DNA of 64,000 nucleotides from Trametes villosa (lineage: Eukaryota; Basidiomycota; Agaricomycetes; Polyporales; Polyporaceae). The stretch spans positions 310,001-374,000 of the forward strand of contig PUDQ02000067.1 in assembly GCA_002964805.2 (NCBI GenBank). Reading direction: 5' to 3'. The notes under the pieces were generated by a model. The model made no database searches. It was not told the DNA's origin and worked only from the letters and a program-made list of their open reading frames with translations. Of the stretch, positions 6,528-32,588 are shown one piece after another (within the stretch, counting starts at the first letter, position 1; each line of letters starts with the position of its first letter). The translations under genes and the position numbers were made by a program.

Positions 6528-8345
6528 TCATTCCGCTGCTTCCCTGGGCCCGCCGCTCTCGATCCCTCCCTCAAGCTCAGCTTCGGACTCGCCGCTCTGC
6601 GAAGCCACCGCAAACTCGACTGACTCCCAATCGTCGCCGTCGTGGTCAGGGAAGGAGTAGATCGGACCTCCGACGGCGGTGAGGAACTCTGGGAGCTCGG
6701 GCGACCGGTCCCGACGCTCGGCGCCGCTGTTGACGTCGAGAGAGGGGGACGAGACGGATGTGTGAGCACCTTCGAGCCGTGCGTTTGTCTCGTGGAGGGC
6801 GAGGAGGAAACGGCTGTTCAGGATGGAGGAGATCCTGTACAGAGCATATGATGGAGTGATTAATACGGTTAAAGGGTGCTGGGAGGACAATACCGTACGG
6901 ATCAATGAACAGCAGTAGGTAGGCCCCGTCACCCGGCGCATATGTGATCTTTGCATCGAGGCCAACCATGTTTAGTATGATAACTTGGTGTGCGTTTTCG
7001 GGTTCGTACCGCGCGAATCACCAAGATCATTTCCACGAGGTTCATAGAAGCCAGTATGCTGCGGACAACCACATCAGTGTCGTAGTACAGCGATGCCATA
7101 TGACTCATGTGACGACAGACCAGAAGTATATGCTTCCTGAAAACCAGACGGCGATAGGGGATTAGGCTAGAGACGATAAGTGAGCGGTGCCGTGCCCACC
7201 ATTGTCCCACATGACTTGCTCGAGGGAAGGCCGGCGAATGGTTGTACTTGTCTTGAAAACGTTTGCCAAACGTGCCTGATACCAGGTGACAGCGACGGCC
7301 AGCAGGTCTGCGAGGATTATGCCGCCCCGAGAAGCGATGGTAACTGTTCGGGCAAGTGGGTAATCGCCGGTGCTTTCGTCACTGCAGTCTGGAGCACTCA
7401 CATCTACCCCGTTACCGAGTCAGCGCTATTCGTTGGCACAGTGTCCCGTAGCCTGGGACCCCAAGGTGGAGGACTTACCCTGTGTGCAGACTCGGGCTGA
7501 TATCGACAACCAATTCACAATAATCTGGTGGGGGGAGAATGATAATGCTGATCCAGTGCAAGTTGACCTACGCTCCCATTGCTGAGCCGGAAGGAAGTGG
7601 ATGACGAGGCAGAGGGCTTACCATATTGACGACGACGGGTGCTAGGCTTAGCACGAGCGTAGCCCCACCTACTACTCTGTTCTTCCTCGAAAGGGCGTAG
7701 ACTCGCAGCGTAGTAAACACTGTTGTGGTTCATTAGCAAGTTTGGGAATTCCGGCTGTCGTACTCACTGGCAGGTCCGAGGAAACTCAAATATTGCGTAG
7801 ACACATTAAGCCAGTTGAGTGCAGCACAGCTTCGTGTAGGGACAGCATGAGAGGAGATATGAGACGGACCCAATGAACAGAAGCATCTACCTCTGAGTGG
7901 CGGGTGCGCTTCAGAAATGTGATCTGCCACTGCGGATGCAAAAGAATACCCACCGTGTCCGACATCGAGGCACCCAGCGCGAGACCCATTATGTTGCATA
8001 GCAGGGACATGTACCTGTTCCACGCATAGAGAATGCGCGAAACCCAGCTCTTCGACGACTGCCAAATGTACTGGTATTCTCGGCCCGATGTGAGAATAAC
8101 GTCGTACGCAAGCAGCGCTATCCCAATCAAGCAGGTGCATTTAATCGATATGTGGCGGGCTGCGAGCGTGCATATAATAGCACGTACCCGTGACTACAAT
8201 ATTGCAGATGTTGCCTGTTCTCCTGCATGGGATGCTGGTTAGCTGCGTCCTATTGTCAAGACACGCCGCACAGAAATGAAACAGCCTACGCAGATGCAAC
8301 GTCGGCGATCTCTTGTGCGATCTCTGCAGTGGTCGGCGACGACAT
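6528..8345 (-). CDS. DUF6533 seven-helix membrane protein, array unit 1
   Basis: Predicted multi-pass membrane protein of the basidiomycete DUF6533 family; biochemical role unknown. Exons (minus strand): 8345-8290, 8222-8188, 8117-7954, 7892-7891, 7829-7768, 7719-7622, 7567-7479, 7403-7402, 7343-7200, 7136-7121, 7058-7010, 6948-6899, 6834-6528; 1,074 bases, 357 residues. Order of features: polar N-terminus MSSPTTAEIAQEIADVASA; DUF6533 signature YDVILTSGREYQYIW followed by SKSWVSRILYAWNRY; TTLRVYALSRKNR loop after helix 3; lumenal Cys block PPPDYCEL; helix ILADLLAVAVTWYQAR with RRPSLEQVMW; short SIYF exon; helix SMNLVEMILVI; ISSILNSRFLLALHETNARL; then an acidic Ser-rich cytoplasmic-type tail with GGPIYSFPDHDGDDW. 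The two 2-base exons (7892-7891 AG, 7403-7402 AT) are required to keep frame. Splicing is inferred, not observed. Confidence 0.85.
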
Positions 8346-10315: not shown

Positions 10316-12130
10316 TTATACCAGTACCCCGCCCGCCGGCACACACTCTCCCTCGGGCGAGTCGGGCTCGGTGTCATCTCCGCACGACGGCCGCGCGAAG
10401 TCGGGCGACTGCAAGCTCTCATCAGCGCAGGAGCGGAGATGGCCCCCGAGAGAGCCGAGGTACGCCGGGAGCTCGGGCGACCCGGCTCGGATCCCCCTCT
10501 GCCCATCGCCACTGTCACTGCCCAGGTGGAGGGAGAAGGAGGACCCGGTGGACGCGTCGGCGCCCTCGAGCCGCGCTCGGGTCTCGTGCAGGGCGAGGAG
10601 GAAGCGGCTGTTCAGCACGGAGGAGATGCTGCGCAGGAGGGTCAGTGTAGGCGAAGGCGACGGAAGTGGCGCGGGGGGCCTTACGGGTCGACGAACTCCA
10701 GGATGTAGGAGCCTGCGCCGGGTTGGATTGTGGTCTTCCGGAGGGTGTTATTTGCAAGGACAGGTGTGGTGATGGGTAAAGAACGCACCGAGAATATGAC
10801 TAGCGCCATGTCTACTACGTTCATAGACACCAGGGTGCTGCGTGATAACCAGTCAACTGTCAGGCCTAGGATGCGAAGCGTAGCACAAGATCTGAACAAG
10901 AGAACGAACCAGAAGTAGATATTTCCTAACAGATAACCTCATAATTCAGCACACGGGGAAGAGGCGTCAGGAAGCCGAATGGCGTCCAGCTCACCATTTT
11001 CCCACATGACCTGCTCCAGGGAGGGCCGCCGCAGCACGCCCCTCGTCACTCGATGAGCCGTCCGTGTGCGGCGCCACGTAACGACGACGGCCAGCAGATC
11101 CGAGAGGATCAGGCAGCCCCTTGAGCCCATGGTCACTGTTTTGGAAGGTCAATCCTTGTACGTTCGCTCATACGGCGTTTCGTGCTCACATCTAGCGCGA
11201 TTACGGACGTTGAATATATTGTATCAGCTCCGAGCGCGTAGTTTGAGCGAGATTCTGACGACCTACCCTAGGAAGACTGCTGTGCTCGTAGTGCTGTACG
11301 AGCTGCAGTTCAGCGGCGAGGGCAGGTTGATGGGCGAGATCTGGTACGAAATGCTCTGCCGTGCGCTATACTATTAGCCAGGAACTAGCATATATGCAGG
11401 GCGAAGAGGGTACTGACCGCGTTCATGATGAAGGGTGCCATGCTTAACACGAGCGTAATCCCGCCGAGTGCCCTGTTCTTGTTGGAGAGTGCGTAGATGC
11501 GCAGAGTGGTGAACACTGGGACACCATGCTGTCAGCGCGTGTGTAGAGTGACAATGGCCGACGAGGGAGTACTCACGGGCGGGGCCGACCAGGCTCAGAA
11601 TCTGGACGGAGTAGGCGAGCCAGACGAGAGTGGCGCATCTTCATGGCAGGGCTTCGGCGTCAGGAGTGCATGGAAGAGAGAGCTGAAAATGCGCATATAC
11701 CTCTGCGCAGGACCACTTTAGCAATATATTTTGGGATACCCTTCGCGTACTCACAGTGTCCGATATCGCCGGAGCCGTCCCGAGGACCAGGAGAGAGTAC
11801 AACAGGATCATGTACCTGTTGTACACGTATAGGGCTCGCGAGAACCGGCTCTTCGCTGAGCGCCACACGTATTGGTATTCCTTGCCGAAAGTGAGGACGA
11901 CGTCATAAACGAGCAACGCTACGTTGGGCGAGGTGAGTGAGACGCGAGCACGTTCTAGCGCACTCCGTACCCGTGGCTGCAATCCCGCAGTAGTTGGTTG
12001 CGGACCTGCGAGAAAAACGCTGGGCGTGAGCTGCGATTTCTGCCAATAGTCTATAGCGAGGTGCGCACACTCACAGGGACTCGACAAGAGCAACATCCTG
12101 TGCCACGGCAGCAGAAGTCGACGACGCCAT
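10316..12130 (-). CDS. DUF6533 seven-helix membrane protein, array unit 2
   Basis: Exons: 12130-12075, 12005-11971, 11918-11755, 11702-11701, 11638-11577, 11515-11418, 11355-11267, 11191-11190, 11135-10995, 10925-10910, 10837-10789, 10734-10685, 10628-10316; 1,077 bases, 358 residues, fully open. The signature reads YDVVLTFGKEYQYVW; helix ILSDLLAVVVTWRR and RRPSLEQVMWENG follow. This is the most diverged copy: the N-terminus starts MASSTSAAVAQ, and the C-terminal tail lacks the SFPDHDDEDW motif shared by the others, ending in a Pro/Glu/Gly-rich stretch. The 2-base exons are AG at 11702-11701 and AT at 11191-11190. Intron 10 happens to be free of stops in frame (72 bases), so its retention would also leave the frame open in this copy. 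Function unknown. Confidence 0.84.
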
Positions 12131-13353: not shown

Positions 13354-15171
13354 TCAAAGCGTGGTACCGCCCTCGGCTCGGAGTCCTCCCTCCGCGCCGG
13401 TCTCAGCGCCGGCCTCCACCTCCGCCGCAACTTCCGAATCGCCGCCCTGTGACGGCGCCGTGAACTCGACTGACCCCCAGTCTTCGTCGTCGTGGTCAGG
13501 GAAGGAGTGGATCGGGCCACCGACGGCGGCAAGGAACTCCGGGAGCTCGGGCGACCCGTCTCTCGGGCCGCCGTCGCTGTCAATGTTGAGGGAGATGGAG
13601 GAGATGGAGGTGTTGGCGCCTTCAAGCCGGGCGTTGGTCTCATGGAGGGCGAGGAGGAAGCGGCTGTTCAGGATAGAGGAGATGCTGGGCAAACGGTTTG
13701 TCAGAACTATCAGTCCAATCGTGAATGTGGGAGGGAAGAGGAGCCGTACGGGTCGATGAAAGTCAAGATGTTAGCCCCGTAACCCGGCGTATATATGGTC
13801 TTCAGAGACACTGGGTAAGAGATAAATTGCTGTATATCTCGGTGGGTACGCACCGAGCGTATGACTAGCACCATATCCACGACGTTCATAGACACTAGTG
13901 TGCTGAGCCCGAATTGCTAGTTGAAACGGGATACGTGGTGCCGAAACTGGACCGAACGAACCAGAAATAAACACTGCCTGTTAAGTGAAAGAGCCGTTGT
14001 CAGTGATCGTCGCAAGCTAGGTGTAGTACAAGGACCGTGTCAACCCACCGTTTTCCCACATGACCTGCTCCAGGGAAGGCCGGCGTATCGTATCGGTCCC
14101 CAATGTCCTCGCCGAGCGTGCTTGGTACCATGTGACGGCGACAGCCAGCGAGTCGACGAGGATCAGACAGCTTCGAGAAGCGATGACAACTGTTTTCCAG
14201 GCACGTTAATACTCGACTACGGTGGTTTTCTGTAACCGAATCTCGTAGTACTCACATCTGTCCCATCAGCGAGTTGGCGATCTTCAGACGGCGTCTCGTA
14301 ATGCGTTTTGGAAGAGAGAGGGCTTACCCCGTATATAGATTCTTGCTGATATCGTCCACCAATGCGCAGTTGAACGGCGCGGGAAGATTGATGGGGTGGA
14401 ACCAGCGGAAGTTGACCTACAACGTCGTCACCGAGTGTGATTGGAGTGATCGAAAGCGTAGACGGCTCACCATATTCATGACGAAGGGTGCCAGACTGAG
14501 GACGAGGGCGACCTCCCAGCGCCCTGTCCTTCCTTGAGAGGGCGTATATTCGCAGCATAGTGAACACTATCAGGGACGGTTAGCGGGATTTATACTCCGA
14601 ATTGTGTCGTACGCACTGCCAGGGCCAAGTATACTCAGGTACGCCATGATACTCCCTACCCATCCGAGAGTGACACAACTTCATGCGAGGGTAATATTAG
14701 AAGTTATCCGGGACGAGACTGATGAACTCATGCCCTACCTCTGAGGAAGTGTACGTCAGTGATCTGCCATGGTGAAATGGGAAAGTGTGCTTACGGTGTC
14801 CGATACCGGATTGATACTCCCAACATTTAGAACGTTATACGCGAGGGACGTATACCTGTTCCACACATAGAGAATGCGCGAAGCGTAGCTCTTTGGAGCT
14901 CGCCAGATGTATTGGTATTCTTGACCTAGAGTGAGGAGGGTATCGTACACGAGGAGTGCTATCACATTCTGAGATGAGTGTCTGATACAAAGCGTGCTTG
15001 GGGTATGCGTAGAAAGGTACGCACTTGTGACTGCGATGATGCATGTAGCCAGCGTAACCCTACGCCGAAACATAGTTTATCAGCTGCGCCTCAACACCAT
15101 CTCCGAGAAACAACTTACTGAGTCTGTGCAGCAGCGATTTCTTGATCGACGACCGCAGTGGTCGACGACAT
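13354..15171 (-). pseudogene. DUF6533 membrane protein, array unit 3, frameshifted
   Basis: All 13 exons can be placed with good splice sites, from ATG at 15171 (MSSTTAVVDQEIAAAQTQ) to the stop at 13354, including both 2-base exons (AG 14740-14739, AT 14257-14256). Exon 6 (14566-14471) is 96 bases instead of the 98 found in the other units: two bases are missing in the Gly-Gly stretch after YALSRKDRALGG, near 14507-14516, so the frame shifts before helix 4. Downstream exons stay well conserved (RRPSLEQVMWENG, TLVSMNVVDMVLVI, the GGPIHSFPDHDDEDWGS tail), implying the lesion is recent or is a sequence error. If real, the product is truncated after about three helices. Confidence 0.8.
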
Positions 15172-17158: not shown

Positions 17159-19003
17159 TCACGCCAGCTCTTCCTCGGACCCAACTTTGATCGCGGCACC
17201 GCTCTCGACTCCTTCCTCCGTGCCGCACTCCGTTTCTGCTTCCGACGAGCCGGACTCGCTGCCCCGCATCGACGCCACAAATTGGAGCGTCCCCCAGTCC
17301 GACCCTTCGTCCTCGTGGTCGGGGAAGGAGTGGATAGGGCCGCCGACAGCGGAGAGAAACCCCGGAAGATCGGGCGACACGTCCCTCGGCCCGCCGCCGC
17401 TGTTGATGTCGAGGGAGAGGGAGGAAATGGTCGAGCTGGCGCCTGCAAGCCGCGCGTTGGTCTCGTGGAGGGCGAGGAGGAAGCGGCTGTTCAGGATGGA
17501 AGAGAGGCTGGATATATTGGACGTAGCGGTGAACACGGGCGCTTACACCAAAGAAGATGAGGGTCTTACGGGTCTATGAATACGATGATGTAGGCCGCCT
17601 GACCCGGTGCAATGGTGATCTGTAAGAGAGTAAAAGACTATGTTAATCGATGCATATCTGACCGGACACGCACCGAGAGTATGACTAGTATCATATCCAC
17701 GATATTCAAAGACACCAGTGCGCTGCATTGCACCGTCAGCATGGAAAGCGCGCTCGGAGCGTCGGATAAGGACCACAAACCAGAAGTATACAATTCCTGT
17801 TGAATACACAAATTGTTACAGCTCAGCATCCGCGCAGCAAGTAGAAAGAGGATTCTGTAGAGCTTACCATTTTGCCACATGACTCGCTCGAGAGAAGGTC
17901 GTCGCATCGCACTCGTCTTGAATACGTTCGCTGAACGCGCTTGGAACCAGGTAACGGCGACTGCCAGTGAGTCTACGAGGATCAGACAGCTGCGGGACGT
18001 GATGACCACTGTTTGTGCGTGTCAGTGGCTAGTACTCGATTCGTCACGAGGAGATTTAGCACTCACTTCTGCCCCACGGTCGCCGGATCGGATCAGCGCT
18101 ATTTAGATGCTGTCCCGTAAGGCACCTCAAGAGAGAAGACCTACCCCTTGTACACTCTCGGGGTGTTAATGTTGCTGTATTGACAGTTATACGGCGCGGG
18201 GAGATTGACGGGCCGGAGCCAGTGGTAGTTAGTCTGCAGCGTCATCACTCAGCCCGGAACGGGGTGTATGACAAGACATAGGGCTGACCACATTGATGGC
18301 GAAGGGCACCAGACTCAGGACGAGCGCGATTCCACCCAGGGCCCAGTTCTTCCTTGAGAGCGCGTAGATTCGCAGTGTGGTAAACACTAGCATGGGCCGT
18401 TAGTGGGTCCGGTGCTGCTGGTTGTCCGAGTCGTACTCACTAGCAGGTCCAAGCAAACACAAGTACAGCACAGAGACCGTGAGCCAGTCGAGTGCGGCGC
18501 AGCTTCAGGCGTGGCAATATCAGGGGGCATGCGGGATAAACTGATAAGCATAGAAATCTACCTCTGAGAGTGCATACTTGAGTGGTCTAGTATAGATTGG
18601 GGATGGAAAAGCACGCTCACCGTGTCCGACATCGAGGGGAGTGACCCCAGTTGCAGGATAAAATACAGCAGTGGCAAGTACCGGTTCCACACGTAGAGGA
18701 CGCGTGATACCCAGCTCTTCGAAGAACGCCAGACATAACGGTATTCTTGGCCTGTAGTAAGGACCATGTCGTAGATGAGGAGCGCTATCATCACGAGAGT
18801 TAGCATTTCTCGTACGAAGTGTGATCCGCGCGTGCATAACAGTACGCACCTGTAAGAGCGATGTCACAGATGATTTGTGTTCTCCTGCACAGAATGTGCG
18901 TTAGCAATGTCGCACTGACACGTGCGCTAACTGAAGCCACATACAAAGCCACAGCGGAGGCGATGAGTTCTTGTGCAATGGCTGCAGCGCTCGGCGACGA
19001 CAT
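17159..19003 (-). CDS. DUF6533 seven-helix membrane protein, array unit 4
   Basis: ATG at 19003 (MSSPSAAAIAQELIASAVAL), stop at 17159; 1,116 bases, 371 residues in 13 exons. Anchor exons: 18784-18621 (YDMVLTTGQEYRYVW, SKSWVSRVLYVWNRY), 18563-18562 (2-base AG), 18068-18067 (2-base exon, here AA instead of AT, giving Gly-Met), 18008-17868 (LVDSLAVAVTWFQAR, RRPSLERVMWQNG), last exon 17507-17159. The tail carries GGPIHSFPDHEDEGSDW and further acidic residues. All junctions have GT/AG ends and the frame stays open. Function unknown; probably a paralogue from tandem duplication. Confidence 0.85.
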
Positions 19004-22375: not shown

Positions 22376-24226
22376 TTAAGCCGGCACCTCCACAATCCCG
22401 CCTTCGACGACTGTGCCGCTCTCGACTCCTCTCTGCGTCTCCGCCTCCGCGCTCGCCTCCATATCTACACCCGCCTCGGACTCGCCGCCCTGCGACGGCA
22501 TCGCGAACTCGACCGATCCCCAGTCCTCGTCCTCGTGGTCATGGAAGGAGTGAATAGGGCCTCCGACGGTAGCGAGGAACGCCGGGAGCTCTGCCGACCC
22601 GCGCCTCCGCTCGACGCCGCTGTTGATATCGAGGGAGAGGGAGGAAAGAGACACATCGGCGCCTTCGAGCCGGGCGTTGGTCTCGTGGAGGTCCAGAAGG
22701 AAGCGGCTGTTCAGTGTGGAGGAAATCCTGTGCGGGGGGTCGATCGTGAGGTTCAGTGCCTTTGTGTGGGTCAAAAATGTGGGGAACCTTACGGGTCTAT
22801 GAAGTATATGAGATAAGCCCCTTCACCTGGCTGCACTACTGTGACCTTATAGAAAAGGTATGTTGGAAAACCAACGCATATTAGGCCAGGGACGCACCGA
22901 AACGATGACCAGTATCATTTCCACAATATTCATCGACACTAGCGCACTGCGCACAAAACGGTTAGAAAGGAAAGCGCGGAGTTCAGCTTGAACATCACAG
23001 ACTAGAAGTAAAAACTCCCTGATGATCAGACAGTTCAATCCAGGTCAACATTCGGGCGAAAGGGGGTAAGAAGACCTTCTCAAGCTCACCATTTTCCCAC
23101 ATGACTCGCTCGAGGGAAGACCGGCGGGATATTGTACTCGTCCTGAATAGGCTTGCTGAGCGGGCTGTGTACCAGGTGACAGCAACGACCAGCGAGTCTG
23201 CGAGAATCAGACAACCCCGAGAAGCGATGGTCACTAGCTGGAGAAGTCAGTAACTACTACTTTAACGTATTTAGAGCCTGGGGCACCCACATCTACCCCG
23301 TCCACCACGTCAGCGCTATTCAGGCAGTGTCCCATTATGACAGGGCATTCCAAGGGGGAAAGACTTACCCCGTATGTAAACTCGGGCTGATCGTGGAAGC
23401 CACTTCACAGTTATCGGGCGCGGGGAGATTGACGGGCAGGTATCGGTATATCACGTTCTACAGTTGCACCACTGAGCTGGAATCAGAGCGAATGACGAGA
23501 CAGAGGACTGACCATGTTGATCACGAAGGGCGCCAGACTCAGCACGAGCGCGACCCCGCCCAGCGTCCTGTTCTTCTTGGAGAGTGCATAGATCCGCAGC
23601 GTGGTAAACACTAACATAGGCCGTAAGCTGGGTATGGCAACTCTAATTGTCGTACTCACTAGCAGGCCCAAGCAAGTTCAGGCACATTGCAGTATCAACG
23701 AGATATGTGAGTGCGACACAGCTGTGTACGAGAACGATATTAGACAGAATACGGGATGGTACCGATAAACACAAGCATCTACCTCTGAGAATGTACTTCA
23801 GTGAACGAATGCGGTCAGGGGGTGGAGAGGATACTGACCGTGTCCGACATCGAAGGAAGCGTTCCGAGTTCCAGGAGGTTGGACAGCAAGGTCACGTATC
23901 TGTTCCACGCATAGAGCACGCGCGAAGCCCAGCTCTTGGACGATTTCCAGATGTATTGGTATTCTTGTCCCGAAGTGAGGATGACGTCGTACGCGAGCAG
24001 CGCTATCGCCATCCACCATCAGTGCTTCTTGTCTGTGGTGTGCTGTAAACGAGAAGACAGTGCATACCCGTAACTGCCATGCTGCAGCTGTTGCCCGCTC
24101 TCCTGCACGAAATATTCGTAAGTCGTGCCTCATTGCCGTTTGTGTGGAAATGAGATAAAAAACCTACAAAGTCGCAGCGCTGGCGATCTCTTGCGCGATG
24201 ATCGCTGCTGTGTTCGAGGCTGACAT
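22376..24226 (-). CDS. DUF6533 seven-helix membrane protein, array unit 5
   Basis: ATG at 24226 (MSASNTAAIIAQEIASAATL), stop at 22376; 1,125 bases, 374 residues, 13 exons. Anchors: exon 1 ends 24168; exon 3 24002-23839 (YDVILTSGQEYQYIW, SKSWASRVLYAWNRY); 2-base exon AG 23784-23783; exon 7 with LPAPDNCEV; 2-base exon AT 23292-23291; exon 9 23233-23090 (LADSLVVAVTWYTAR); last exon 22727-22376 with GGPIHSFHDHEDEDWGS. The 16-base exon 10 ends TTCTA before the donor instead of TTCTG, which would be a stop (TAG) only if that intron were retained. Exon 12 is three bases longer than in the other units. No lesion found. Confidence 0.86.
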
Positions 24227-27315: not shown

Positions 27316-29101
27316 TCAGAGCCCGCCGCCACCGCCGCCAACGCCACTCTCCGTGCCCGCCTCCGACCCCGCTTCCGCTCCTGCCTCAAAATCGCTGCCG
27401 TGCGAGGGGGATGCGAAGTCGACCGATCCCCAATCCTCATCGTCGTGGTCGGGGAAGGAGTGAATAGTGCCTCCGACGGTCGCGAGAAGCGCCGGGAGCT
27501 CGGGCGACCCGTCCCTCGGCGAGCCCGAGCTATTGGTTTCGAAGCAAAGGGATGACATGGACGTGTTGGTGCCTTCGAGCCGAGCGCCGGTCTCGTGGAG
27601 GGCGAGAAGGAATCGGCTATTCAGGATGGAGGAGATGCTGTTCGTGATGTTTGTGGCGATGATCAGTATAGTTCTGGTATGCCGGAAAGACGACAGCATA
27701 CGGGTCTATGAACACTATGATGTACGCCCCGTATCCGGGCGCGAATGTGATCTGTAGCGCAAAGCTATGTCAGAGGTTGCTGGTTGGACGCGACGTAGGA
27801 GTGCGACAAGTACCATTTCCACGATATTCATAGATGCGAGTGCGCTGTAGACGAACTCATCAGAGAGTCAAGCGCGACGTTAACTTGGAGAATCACAGAC
27901 CAGAAGTAAATGATACCTGTTGAGCAGACGGGTCGTTGCGAGTGAATATCTGGGTGGAACGAAGAGGGAGACCTGTCGAACTCACCGCCTTGCCACATAA
28001 CTTGGTCTAGGGAGAGCCGGCGCATCGTACTCGTGTTGAACACATTCGTGGAGCGCGCTCGGTACCAGGTCACAGCGACGGCGAGCAATTCTGCGAGGAT
28101 GAGACAACATCGAGAGGAGATGGTTACTATATTCAAAGACAGGTAAGCAGCGTTAACTGCCTCCCTCCCCATAACCGGGAGCCGTGGCACTCACATCTGT
28201 GCCCTCGCCGGGTCAGCGATGTTCATAAGATGTCCCGTTCGATAGCTCAAGGAAGATCACTTACCCCGCGCGCAGACCCGGGTCGATCTTCGCAGTAAAG
28301 ACGCAGTCATCCGGGGCGGGGCGATTGACGGGCCGGGACCAGGCGTAGTGCGTCTACAGACGCATCGTTCAGCCGGAACGAACTGGATGGTGAGAGAAAG
28401 AGCTGACCAGGTTGATGCCGAGGGGCGCAAGGCTGAGCACGAGCGCGATCCCAGCCAGCACCCAGCTCTTCCTTGAGAGTGCGAAGATTCGCAGGGTGGT
28501 AAACACTAGCATAAGCTGTTAGTGCCTACTAATGCTTCTAGATGTCGTACTCACTTGCAGGTCCTAGCAGGCCCAGGTAATCGACGGTCACGCTGGGCCA
28601 CACGAGCATGGCACAGCTGAGTGTAGGAGCGATGTCAGAAAGGATGAGAATGATGAACGCAGATGTCTACCTCTGTAGCGTGATTCAGTGCCCTCGTATT
28701 ACCAGGAAGTGCAAAATGATGCTCACAGTGTCCGACATGGAGGGGATCCACCCCAGACACAGGATGCTATACAGCATCGGTATATAACGATTCCACGCGT
28801 AAAGAATGCGCGAAGCCCGGCTCTTTGATGACCTCCAGATATACTGATATTCTTGGCCCCAAGCGAGGAGGACGTCGTATACGAGCAGCGCTATCGCAGC
28901 CAAGTAAATGAGTGTTACACGCAATGAGCTCTGATTGCAAGTTAGGCAGTACGTACCCGTCACTGCAATGCCGGAGATCGCGCTCACTCTCCTACACAGG
29001 CAGGTCAGCACCCTATGATCACCTCGAACGAGGAGAGCAGCCTACTGAAATGCAGCATCGGCGATCACTTCCTCAATGTCCGCAGTGGTTAACGACGACA
29101 T
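27316..29101 (-). CDS. DUF6533 seven-helix membrane protein, array unit 6 (doubtful intron 11 donor)
   Basis: ATG at 29101 (MSSLTTADIEEVIADAAFQ), stop at 27316. Signature YDVLLAWGQEYQYIW; SKSRASRILYAWNRY; ILAELLAVAVTWYRAR; tail GGTIHSFPDHDDEDWGS and a final Gly run. 2-base exons: AG 28672-28671 and AT 28196-28195. Exon 11 starts at 27844 and should end at 27796, but the next two bases are CG; the nearest GT lies one base further (27794-27793), which would shift the frame. A GT 18 bases inside the exon (ATG|GTACTT) would keep the frame and delete six residues of a helix. The gene is therefore either damaged or makes a slightly shorter protein. Other exons are intact and match the common lengths. 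Confidence 0.75.
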
Positions 29102-30762: not shown

Positions 30763-32588
30763 TCAGGCCAGTTCCTCCCCGGCCCCGGTGTCAGCGAGCG
30801 CCGTCACACTCTCGACTCCTCCCTCCGCGCCCGCCCCTATTCCCGCCTCGGGCTCGCTGCCCTCCGACTGCCCAGGAAACTCAGCCTTACCCCAGTCTTC
30901 GTCGTGGTGGTCAGGGAAAGAGTGGATCGGGCCTCCCACTGTCGCGAGGAAGTTGGGAAGCTCGGGAGACTCCCTCCGGGGCTCGCCGCCGCTGACGAAG
31001 TCGAGGGAGAGCGAGGATATGGACGTGTTGGCGCCTTCGAGCCGCGCATTGGTCTCGTGAAGGGCGAGGAGGAAACGGCTGTTTAGGACAGAGGAGATGC
31101 TATGCAAGATGCATATTTTATCAATCAGTAGAGTGTAGGTATGCCGGAAGGACGACGCCGTACGGGTCTATGAAAAGCAGTATGTAGGCCCCGCAACCGG
31201 GCGCGTATGTCATCTTTGGACCAGAACGTGTTAGAAATGTTTTTATATACGCATTTGGGCACGCACCGAGAGTATCACCAGTACCATCTCCACAGTATTC
31301 ATTGAAGCCAGTGTGCTGCAGAAAAGCCCGTCAGAGTCGTCGTGCGGCGCCAGGTCAAGTTGTGACAGACCAGAAGTACACGCTTCCTACAAAACAGACG
31401 GAGATTGGCAGTTAGGCCTGGAAGGGTAAGAGGATCGTGTTGGGCTCACCGTTTTGCCACATAACTTGCTCGAGGGAAGCCCGACGCAATATACCGTTAC
31501 TGAACAGGTTTGCGGAGCGTGCTTGGTACCAGGTGACAGCGACGGCCAGCAAATCTGCGAGGATGATGCAGCCCCGAGAAGCGATGGTAACTGTTTGAAG
31601 AGAACTCAGCAATTCCCATTTTCTCGTGACTGATATTTATAGCACCCACATCTATCCCATTGGTGGTCGCGAGCCGGTCAGCGCTATTCAGGCAGTGCCC
31701 TACAGGACACCCTCAGGGAGACGACTTACCCCATGTTAAGACTCTGACTGATATTGTCGAGTACTGCACAGCCGTACGGTGCGGGGTAGTTGGCGGGCTG
31801 AACCCAGTATATGTTGGCCTACAGGTGCACCGTTCAGTTCGAACAGCATGAATGACGAGTCAGTGAACTCACCAGGTTGATGACGAAGGGCGCCAGACTC
31901 AGCACGAGTGTGACCCCGCCGAGAACCTTGTTCCTCTTCGAAAGGGCGTAAACCCGCAGCGTCGTGAACACTAGCATGGGCCCTTAGCAGGTCTGACGTT
32001 GCCAGCTACTGCCATACGCACTGGCAGGACCGAGCAAACCCAGGTACTCCACAGCAAGATTGACCCAATCGAGTGCGGCACAGCTTCACGCCGGGAATCG
32101 GAGGGGATATGGCGTAAATCGATGAACGTGAGTATCTACCTCTGAGCATGTGCACTTCAGAGTTTTGGTGGGGTGCAAGATGGGAGACCATGCTTACAGT
32201 GTCCGACATCGACTCAGGCATTAGCCCAAGCTCCAGGATGTTGAACAGCAGGGTCATGTATCTGTTCCATGCGTAGAGAACGCGCGAAGCCCGGCTCTTG
32301 GATGATTGCCAAATGTACTGATATTCCCGGCCGGAAGTAAGGACGACGTCGTACGCGAGCACCGCTATCGTAATCGCGGATCAGTGTGTGTCGTATGCGG
32401 TAGGCTATGAAGCGGCATTTAACAGTACGTACCCGTGATTGCGATGGCACAGAAGTTGCTCGCTCTTCTGCATATACAGACACGTTAGTCGGCTAAGCCC
32501 CGTCGACATCCGTGTGGCGATAAATAGCTTACATTGACGCAATGTTAGCGATGACTTCTTCAATGATCTCAGCAGTTGACGACGACAT
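30763..32588 (-). CDS. DUF6533 seven-helix membrane protein, array unit 7
   Basis: ATG at 32588 (MSSSTAEIIEEVIANIASM), stop at 30763; 1,104 bases, 367 residues. Anchors: exon 3 32364-32198 (YDVVLTSGREYQYIW; three bases longer than in other units, adding one residue before SMSDT), 2-base exon AG 32141-32140, exon 6 31970-31873 (TTLRVYALSKRNKVLGG), exon 7 31818-31730 (PAPYGCAV), 2-base exon AT 31651-31650, exon 9 31590-31450, last exon 31099-30763 with GGPIHSFPDHHDEDWG and an acidic end. All junctions are canonical and the frame is open. It is the array copy closest to AKR7 copy 2. Confidence 0.86.

Follow-up and report, generated by a model that had tools for sequence, protein, structure and literature searches.

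In the CYP621A genes of Fusarium, a 1-nucleotide exon lies in a block, AGGGT, that is given for all 24 genes, and RNA reads support it in two species (excerpt of PMC12940212). The plant genes APC11 and VPS55 likewise contain 1-nucleotide exons, which are conserved, misannotated, and RNA-verified (excerpts of PMC4674806 and PMC8831610), and for the exon in APC11 of Arabidopsis the authors propose intron definition together with stepwise removal of the introns (PMC4674806, as excerpted). Exons of 2–5 nucleotides, the size class considered here, are cited as size records for Arabidopsis, Drosophila, and humans in the excerpted part of PMC12940212. In the present study, we analyzed the minus strand of a 64,000-nucleotide stretch of contig PUDQ02000067.1 from Trametes villosa (hereafter the window), which carries seven units of the DUF6533 family, a family whose proteins include that of the fruiting-body gene snb1 (PMC10949477, as excerpted). 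With a probability that we put at about 0.93, each unit contains a constitutive coding exon of only 2 nucleotides, predicted to provide the first two codon positions for the residue preceding a conserved Cys in these DUF6533 membrane proteins. This reading is based on position, frame, length, and the splice and branch signals taken from the sequence, and the single-intron states that bear on it were read from paralogues.

Results

All seven window copies score above the curated cut-off of the Pfam domain PF20151 (DUF6533), and all can be described by the same scheme of exon 3, 2-nucleotide exon, and exon 5. Exon 3 closes in phase 0 after SDT, whose last codon is ACN, and exon 5 starts with N TGY in all seven units. 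The minus-strand motif CAG-AG-GTA, in which the central AG is the predicted exon, occurs at each of the seven coordinates, and the hallmark of an ultra-short microexon, that is, 1–3 nucleotides between an acceptor AG and a donor GT, was found in 7 of the 7 units and, by the scan described below, in 91 of the 121 copies in the genome. The first-pass annotation of the window had proposed the exon at these seven positions, all of which proved exact when the minus strand was read again. It had also given the flanking introns as 52–62 nucleotides, in agreement with the measured 52–61 nucleotides for intron 1 and 54–62 nucleotides for intron 2, and had expected the AG to restore the frame as Ser or Arg, which it does, six units gaining Ser and one Arg. 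The block that it described, acceptor-AG-GTAKRY, holds in all seven units as far as CAG-AG-GTA, but the donor of the third unit, GTAGGG, falls outside GTAKRY. The features are as follows.

7954..8117, minus strand: exon 3 of unit 1, holding most of the DUF6533 domain, with a phase 0 end at MSDT
7893..7953, minus strand: intron 1 of unit 1, 61 nucleotides, GTGGGT...CAG
7891..7892, minus strand: 2-nucleotide exon AG of unit 1 (AG + C = Ser)
7830..7890, minus strand: intron 2 of unit 1, 61 nucleotides, GTAGAT...AAG
7768..7829, minus strand: exon 5 of unit 1, starting C TGT (Cys)
11703..11754, minus strand: intron 1 of unit 2, 52 nucleotides
11701..11702, minus strand: 2-nucleotide exon AG of unit 2 (AG + A = Arg)
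11639..11700, minus strand: intron 2 of unit 2, 62 nucleotides
14741..14794, minus strand: intron 1 of unit 3, 54 nucleotides
14739..14740, minus strand: 2-nucleotide exon AG of unit 3 (Ser; donor GTAGGG)
14679..14738, minus strand: intron 2 of unit 3, 60 nucleotides
18564..18620, minus strand: intron 1 of unit 4, 57 nucleotides
18562..18563, minus strand: 2-nucleotide exon AG of unit 4 (Ser)
18503..18561, minus strand: intron 2 of unit 4, 59 nucleotides
23785..23838, minus strand: intron 1 of unit 5, 54 nucleotides
23783..23784, minus strand: 2-nucleotide exon AG of unit 5 (Ser)
23722..23782, minus strand: intron 2 of unit 5, 61 nucleotides
28673..28726, minus strand: intron 1 of unit 6, 54 nucleotides
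28671..28672, minus strand: 2-nucleotide exon AG of unit 6 (Ser)
28617..28670, minus strand: intron 2 of unit 6, 54 nucleotides
32142..32197, minus strand: intron 1 of unit 7, 56 nucleotides
32140..32141, minus strand: 2-nucleotide exon AG of unit 7 (Ser)
32084..32139, minus strand: intron 2 of unit 7, 56 nucleotides

That inclusion of the pair is required for the reading frame was found both in exon-length scans and by building unit 1 with and without it. The exon chain 8345-8290, 8222-8188, 8117-7954, 7892-7891, 7829-7768, 7719-7622, and 7567-7479, which represents part of the gene of unit 1, forms a single open frame, and removal of the two bases brings a stop seven codons on when the product is followed across the next three exons. 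In units 2–7 a stop appears 8–32 codons on, a distance counted in unspliced sequence, which can extend beyond exon 5. The first-pass claim that skipping of AG yields stops in most copies is thus borne out across spliced exons for unit 1, and for the other six only in unspliced sequence. Retention of the first intron would break the frame or add a stop in 82 of 88 copies, and retention of the second in 86 of 88. The conserved Cys next to the pair marks the start of a predicted helix.

The genome assembly (46.7 Mb, 140 contigs) gave 121 DUF6533 matches, seven inside the window and 114 outside, all of which were examined; the number is a lower bound and includes weak partial matches. A block of the form [CT]AGAGGT is located 70–170 nucleotides beyond the domain in 66 of the 121 copies; in the remainder it was the letters that were different and not the arrangement. 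When the copies were scanned for a phase-0 donor, an acceptor, two bases, a donor, an acceptor, and N TGY followed by twelve open codons, solutions were obtained in 94 copies, and in 91 once the donor position was restricted under a GT-only model. The open downstream frame was not counted as evidence because the scan demanded it. To estimate chance, the outer sites were held fixed and equally good acceptor-NN-donor blocks were counted in 400 dinucleotide shuffles per copy, which gave p ≤ 0.05 in 90 of the 91 scanned copies and p ≤ 0.01 in 82; for the window units, such matches numbered 0 of 400 in five and 1 of 400 in two. The copy that failed under GT donors, L091, accounts for the 91st scan solution.

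Sorting of all 121 copies, done partly by eye, assigned a 2-nucleotide exon to 90 by the scan and to ten more by eye, about 100 in total. Six further copies (L011, L042, L091, L098, L102, and L114) have such an exon if one donor is GC; a GC donor is the best reading of one flanking intron in these six and in L072, and their remaining sequence is usable. In L049, L070, L092, and L107 the pair is present, with one or two additional codons ahead of the Cys or with a GAG acceptor. Across the 90 copies, the first and second flanking introns measure 49–78 and 49–86 nucleotides, respectively. Fungal relatives were also sought with an alignment pattern in viral and genomic contig collections, which gave pattern matches and no confirmed relative. 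As to distribution, 24 of the 121 copies are found on the 438 kb contig of the window, mostly at 215–405 kb, and form a large cluster around it. In one copy, L025, which resembles L031, the acceptor abuts the donor with zero bases between them and the downstream frame appears degenerate.

The length of the interval was then compared with other lengths under the same rules, from 0 to 15 nucleotides with strict donors and from 0 to 17 nucleotides with lenient ones. Under strict rules, 2 nucleotides fits 60 of the 121 copies and every other length fits at most 3 in frame; under lenient rules, 2 nucleotides fits 90 in frame and the runner-up, 14 nucleotides, fits 17. Within the window, 2 nucleotides is the sole length from 0 to 17 that fits all seven units in frame, as the first-pass interpretation would have it (8 and 14 nucleotides fit four units each; 12, 15, and 17 fit one each). 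These counts come from related copies and hence are not independent trials; their weight lies in the fact that the block persists while the introns have diverged beyond resemblance, ungapped identity among the window copies being 31–34% in the flanking introns and 57% at the end of exon 3. The letters of the pair in the 90 copies are AG in 62, GG in 9, AC in 7, CG in 5, GC in 2, CT in 2, and AT, TC, and GT in 1 each, and among the two-intron copies of the tree described below they underwent at least 18 changes, with the length constant at 2. The pair had been reported simply as AG, which is true of the seven window copies and not of others in the genome. AG as a fixed motif is therefore ruled out by the other pairs at the same position, and because the length is fixed while the letters vary, AG would be only the local version. 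The information content over the 90 copies is 0.97 and 1.24 bits at the two exon positions and 0.02–0.44 bits outside the splice sites, which were taken as YAG plus six bases at the start of the donor. It is the length of the predicted exon, rather than its letters, that is conserved.

Signals of two separate introns were also found. The branch motif CTRAY is present in 44% of 88 first introns as compared with 15% in shuffles (maximum 26%), and in 52% of second introns as compared with 13% (maximum 23%), mostly 15–25 nucleotides upstream of each acceptor; the comparison used 200 mononucleotide shuffles and 88 of the 90 copies, with L034 and L108 left out. Both gaps are thus predicted to be introns, with a donor, a branch signal, and an acceptor apiece.

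For seven copies the best reading is a single intron, with the pair within a larger exon: L059, L078, L093, L094, and L112 have no first intron, and L076 and L117 have no second. Relationships were taken from a tree of 103 copies on 77 columns, built by a quick method and with an uncertain root, in which L034, L072, and L108 entered with solutions other than those of the restricted scan. The clearest case of the bases lying inside a larger exon of an intron-lacking relative is L078 beside L020: in L078, GG and a donor come immediately after SDQ, and in L020 the order is SDQ, intron, GG, intron. The two are paired with a support of 92 in the Shimodaira-Hasegawa-like approximate likelihood ratio test (SH-aLRT) within a group of two-intron copies, and because of this nesting L078 reads as a precise loss of the first intron. 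In L076, the acceptor is followed by GAA TGT in one exon, and the copy is sister to five two-intron copies (support 95); the second intron has probably been lost here, a reading that depends on deeper and weaker branches. L059, L093, L094, and L112 (contig C27) constitute a tree group read throughout as having no first intron, with donors GTACGC, GTGAGT, GTGAGT, and GTGAGC, respectively; this may be the ancestral state or a loss. In these four copies, L076, and L117, the pair likely lies inside a larger exon. Since the search for such states is weak alone, the single-intron argument is carried mostly by L078 versus L020 and also depends on the good donors in the remaining copies.

Three protein searches, the third of which was limited in its scoring to the 7997 candidates with the most words in common, yielded 31 distinct proteins, mostly from Trametes and its relatives, and the 28 that cover the site were classified by eye. 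P0007 from Trametes polyzona reads MSDE-S-C, identical to the reconstruction of L062, and supports the predicted frame; P0004 from T. cingulata has the expected length with Val as the residue. P0015 is ambiguous at the join, and P0030 and P0031 are too distant. In 23 of the 28 proteins, residues at the join are missing, added, or frame-shifted, and we infer that these deviations come from an overlooked 2-nucleotide exon. The expectation that such exons would defeat gene predictors is met by most of the annotated Trametes proteins found. A separate peculiarity is seen in P0005, a DUF6533 annotation from Trametes versicolor that also bears a cullin domain (PF00888) and is perhaps a wrong gene fusion past the disrupted site. 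A search of PDB sequences with the family alignment returned a single row (E 0.36), and the top rows of a Foldseek search, in which a fold shared with Class D Ste2-like G protein-coupled receptors (GPCRs) was looked at, were mostly GPCRs, all of them weak matches with E > 0.001.

Discussion

Several observations weigh against a 2-nucleotide exon in these genes. Seven copies are damaged or unclear (L021, L025, L043, L061, L075, L081, and L105), and seven match no model, some of them representing another subfamily or partial copies (L104, L111, and L118–L122). If frame is ignored, a 6-nucleotide block fits 31 of the 121 copies under lenient rules and 5 under strict ones, where no other length exceeds 5. 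The first base of exon 5 is C or T in 60 of the 62 copies with an AG pair and in 11 of the 28 with other pairs (Fisher p = 2.9e-9), but this association was not used as evidence because the copies are related and it includes only 4 independent pairs. The tree was drawn from 77 columns only, with 37 of its 100 branches drawn open. A solution without the first intron is also available in 66 of the 90 two-intron copies, and one without the second in 25; L059 and L076 each have four options, a weak two-intron option exists for L093 as well, and the gene of P0007 may itself lack an intron. To these must be added the existence, in 86 of the 90 copies, of a frame-keeping donor/acceptor route by which a single longer intron of about 110–130 nucleotides could join exon 3 to exon 5, leaving the AG-NN-GT block an accident. 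Its commonest form, a donor 10 nucleotides upstream used with the same exon 5 acceptor, is available in 32 of the 90, and some Trametes annotations (P0003, P0020, and P0022) do splice the Cys exon to a position further upstream in exon 3. However, the seven window copies have no such route in common, and each route occurs in at most 32 of the 90. At the −10 donor, position +3 is C in all 32 copies, 28 of which show the form GTCNGA, and use of this donor would remove the MSDT end that is kept by L078 (SDQ-G-C) and P0007 (MSDE-S-C). Moreover, a second branch-site peak precedes the inner acceptor. We consider a single longer intron highly improbable.

An acceptor and a donor in near juxtaposition might also represent a recursive-splicing (ratchet) point, at which the pair is later discarded from the main messenger RNA, or an exon that is switched in and out. 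Where the pair is AG, CAGAG offers two acceptors 2 nucleotides apart, and splicing at the second would eliminate the exon, but non-AG pairs occur without the second acceptor. Without the pair the frame is shifted, with the early stop seen in unit 1, L078 retains the pair inside a larger exon, and the flanking introns, at only 49–86 nucleotides, are not long, all of which make this scenario quite improbable. Strict juxtaposition with no base retained, as a mark of a ratchet point, was rejected: two bases lie between the sites, and in L078 they are found inside the larger exon. By definition, spliceosomal twin introns (stwintrons), in which one intron splits the splice signal of the other, should leave zero exonic bases between their parts. 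They do occur in fungi (PMC12403724, as excerpted). In the DUF6533 genes, however, neither intron shares its donor, branch signal, or acceptor with the other, and some paralogues are read as carrying just one of the two, so that a stwintron is hardly credible here; the candidate arrangement of an internal intron splitting the splice signal of an external one was rejected, both introns being complete. Equally hard to credit is the idea that the genes are decaying and that the block they share is an inherited remnant. L025, L061, L081, and L105 do look damaged, but the flanking introns of the window copies are dissimilar in contrast with the end of exon 3, and the block has nevertheless been kept, at the same length, across copies with different letters.

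Under the favored explanation, a constitutive 2-nucleotide exon, the predicted exon is old within the DUF6533 family, its length having been held while its letters drifted. The pre-mRNA would contain two adjacent short introns two bases apart, each of which is probably recognized across itself, i.e., by intron definition. They would be removed stepwise, one and then the other in either order, because 2 nucleotides is far too short for the acceptor and the donor to be bound simultaneously. Whichever intron leaves first, the remaining one would retain a full set of sites; if intron 1 is removed first, the pair would then make up the final two positions on the exon side of the intron 2 donor. AG may be the commonest pair through its match to the donor consensus AG-GT and/or through coding for Ser. 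A missed exon would shift the frame. It is also conceivable, though we offer this tentatively and with considerable doubt, that the whole receptor-like family relies on an obligate two-step splicing unit whose central exon of exactly 2 bases is held by frame selection while its letters drift, in about a hundred variants. The same unit could act as a common control point, because one-step splicing of the intron pair would cause a frameshift that switches a family member off.

If confirmed by RNA, one genome would contain about a hundred 2-nucleotide exons that differ in letters, site strengths, and intron lengths, and the inclusion by the spliceosome of exons below its own binding footprint would become directly testable. 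Standard annotation of DUF6533 genes would then often be wrong beside the conserved Cys, as judged by eye from the 23 deviating database proteins among 28, and protein-level studies of the family should verify gene models at the join before this residue.

Among the literature matches listed, with most subscription journals outside their coverage, none reported a 2-nucleotide exon in DUF6533 genes or a family-wide 2-nucleotide exon. The sentence of PMC12940212 that cites exons of 2–5 nucleotides, in the excerpt, mentions no large fungal gene family. The P450 microexons of Phanerochaete are similar in coming from a wood-decay basidiomycete with small introns and tiny exons, but the shortest exon given in the excerpted account is 6 bp, as opposed to 2 nucleotides in DUF6533 (PMC1184071). 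The ratchet points of Drosophila share the immediate succession of acceptor and donor, as well as stepwise removal; according to the excerpt of PMC8605326, they usually retain no base and lie in long introns, whereas the DUF6533 genes would keep two coding bases between introns of 49–86 nucleotides. A closer parallel is found in APC11 and VPS55, whose intronless relatives hold the base within a larger exon, although these are low-copy plant genes with exons of 1 nucleotide (PMC4674806 and PMC8831610, as excerpted), and the stepwise mechanism suggested here is the same as that proposed for the 1-nucleotide exon of Arabidopsis (PMC4674806, in the part excerpted). The exon of CYP621A is likewise fungal and ultra-short, lies within an apparent intron that is over-long, is essential for the frame, and was revealed by a phase mismatch and an intronless relative after annotation had overlooked it. 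As described in the excerpt of PMC12940212, it differs in being a single nucleotide in a constant block, in Fusarium orthologues, and with RNA support, whereas the DUF6533 exon, here deduced from genomic sequence, has 2 nucleotides with variable letters and occurs in about a hundred paralogues of one genome. Because one- and few-nucleotide exons are already known, the predicted 2-nucleotide exon of DUF6533 genes represents a new example, of unusually large extent, within an established class, which stands out by its number in one genome, by the free change of its letters at fixed length, and by relatives that are missing one of the two introns.
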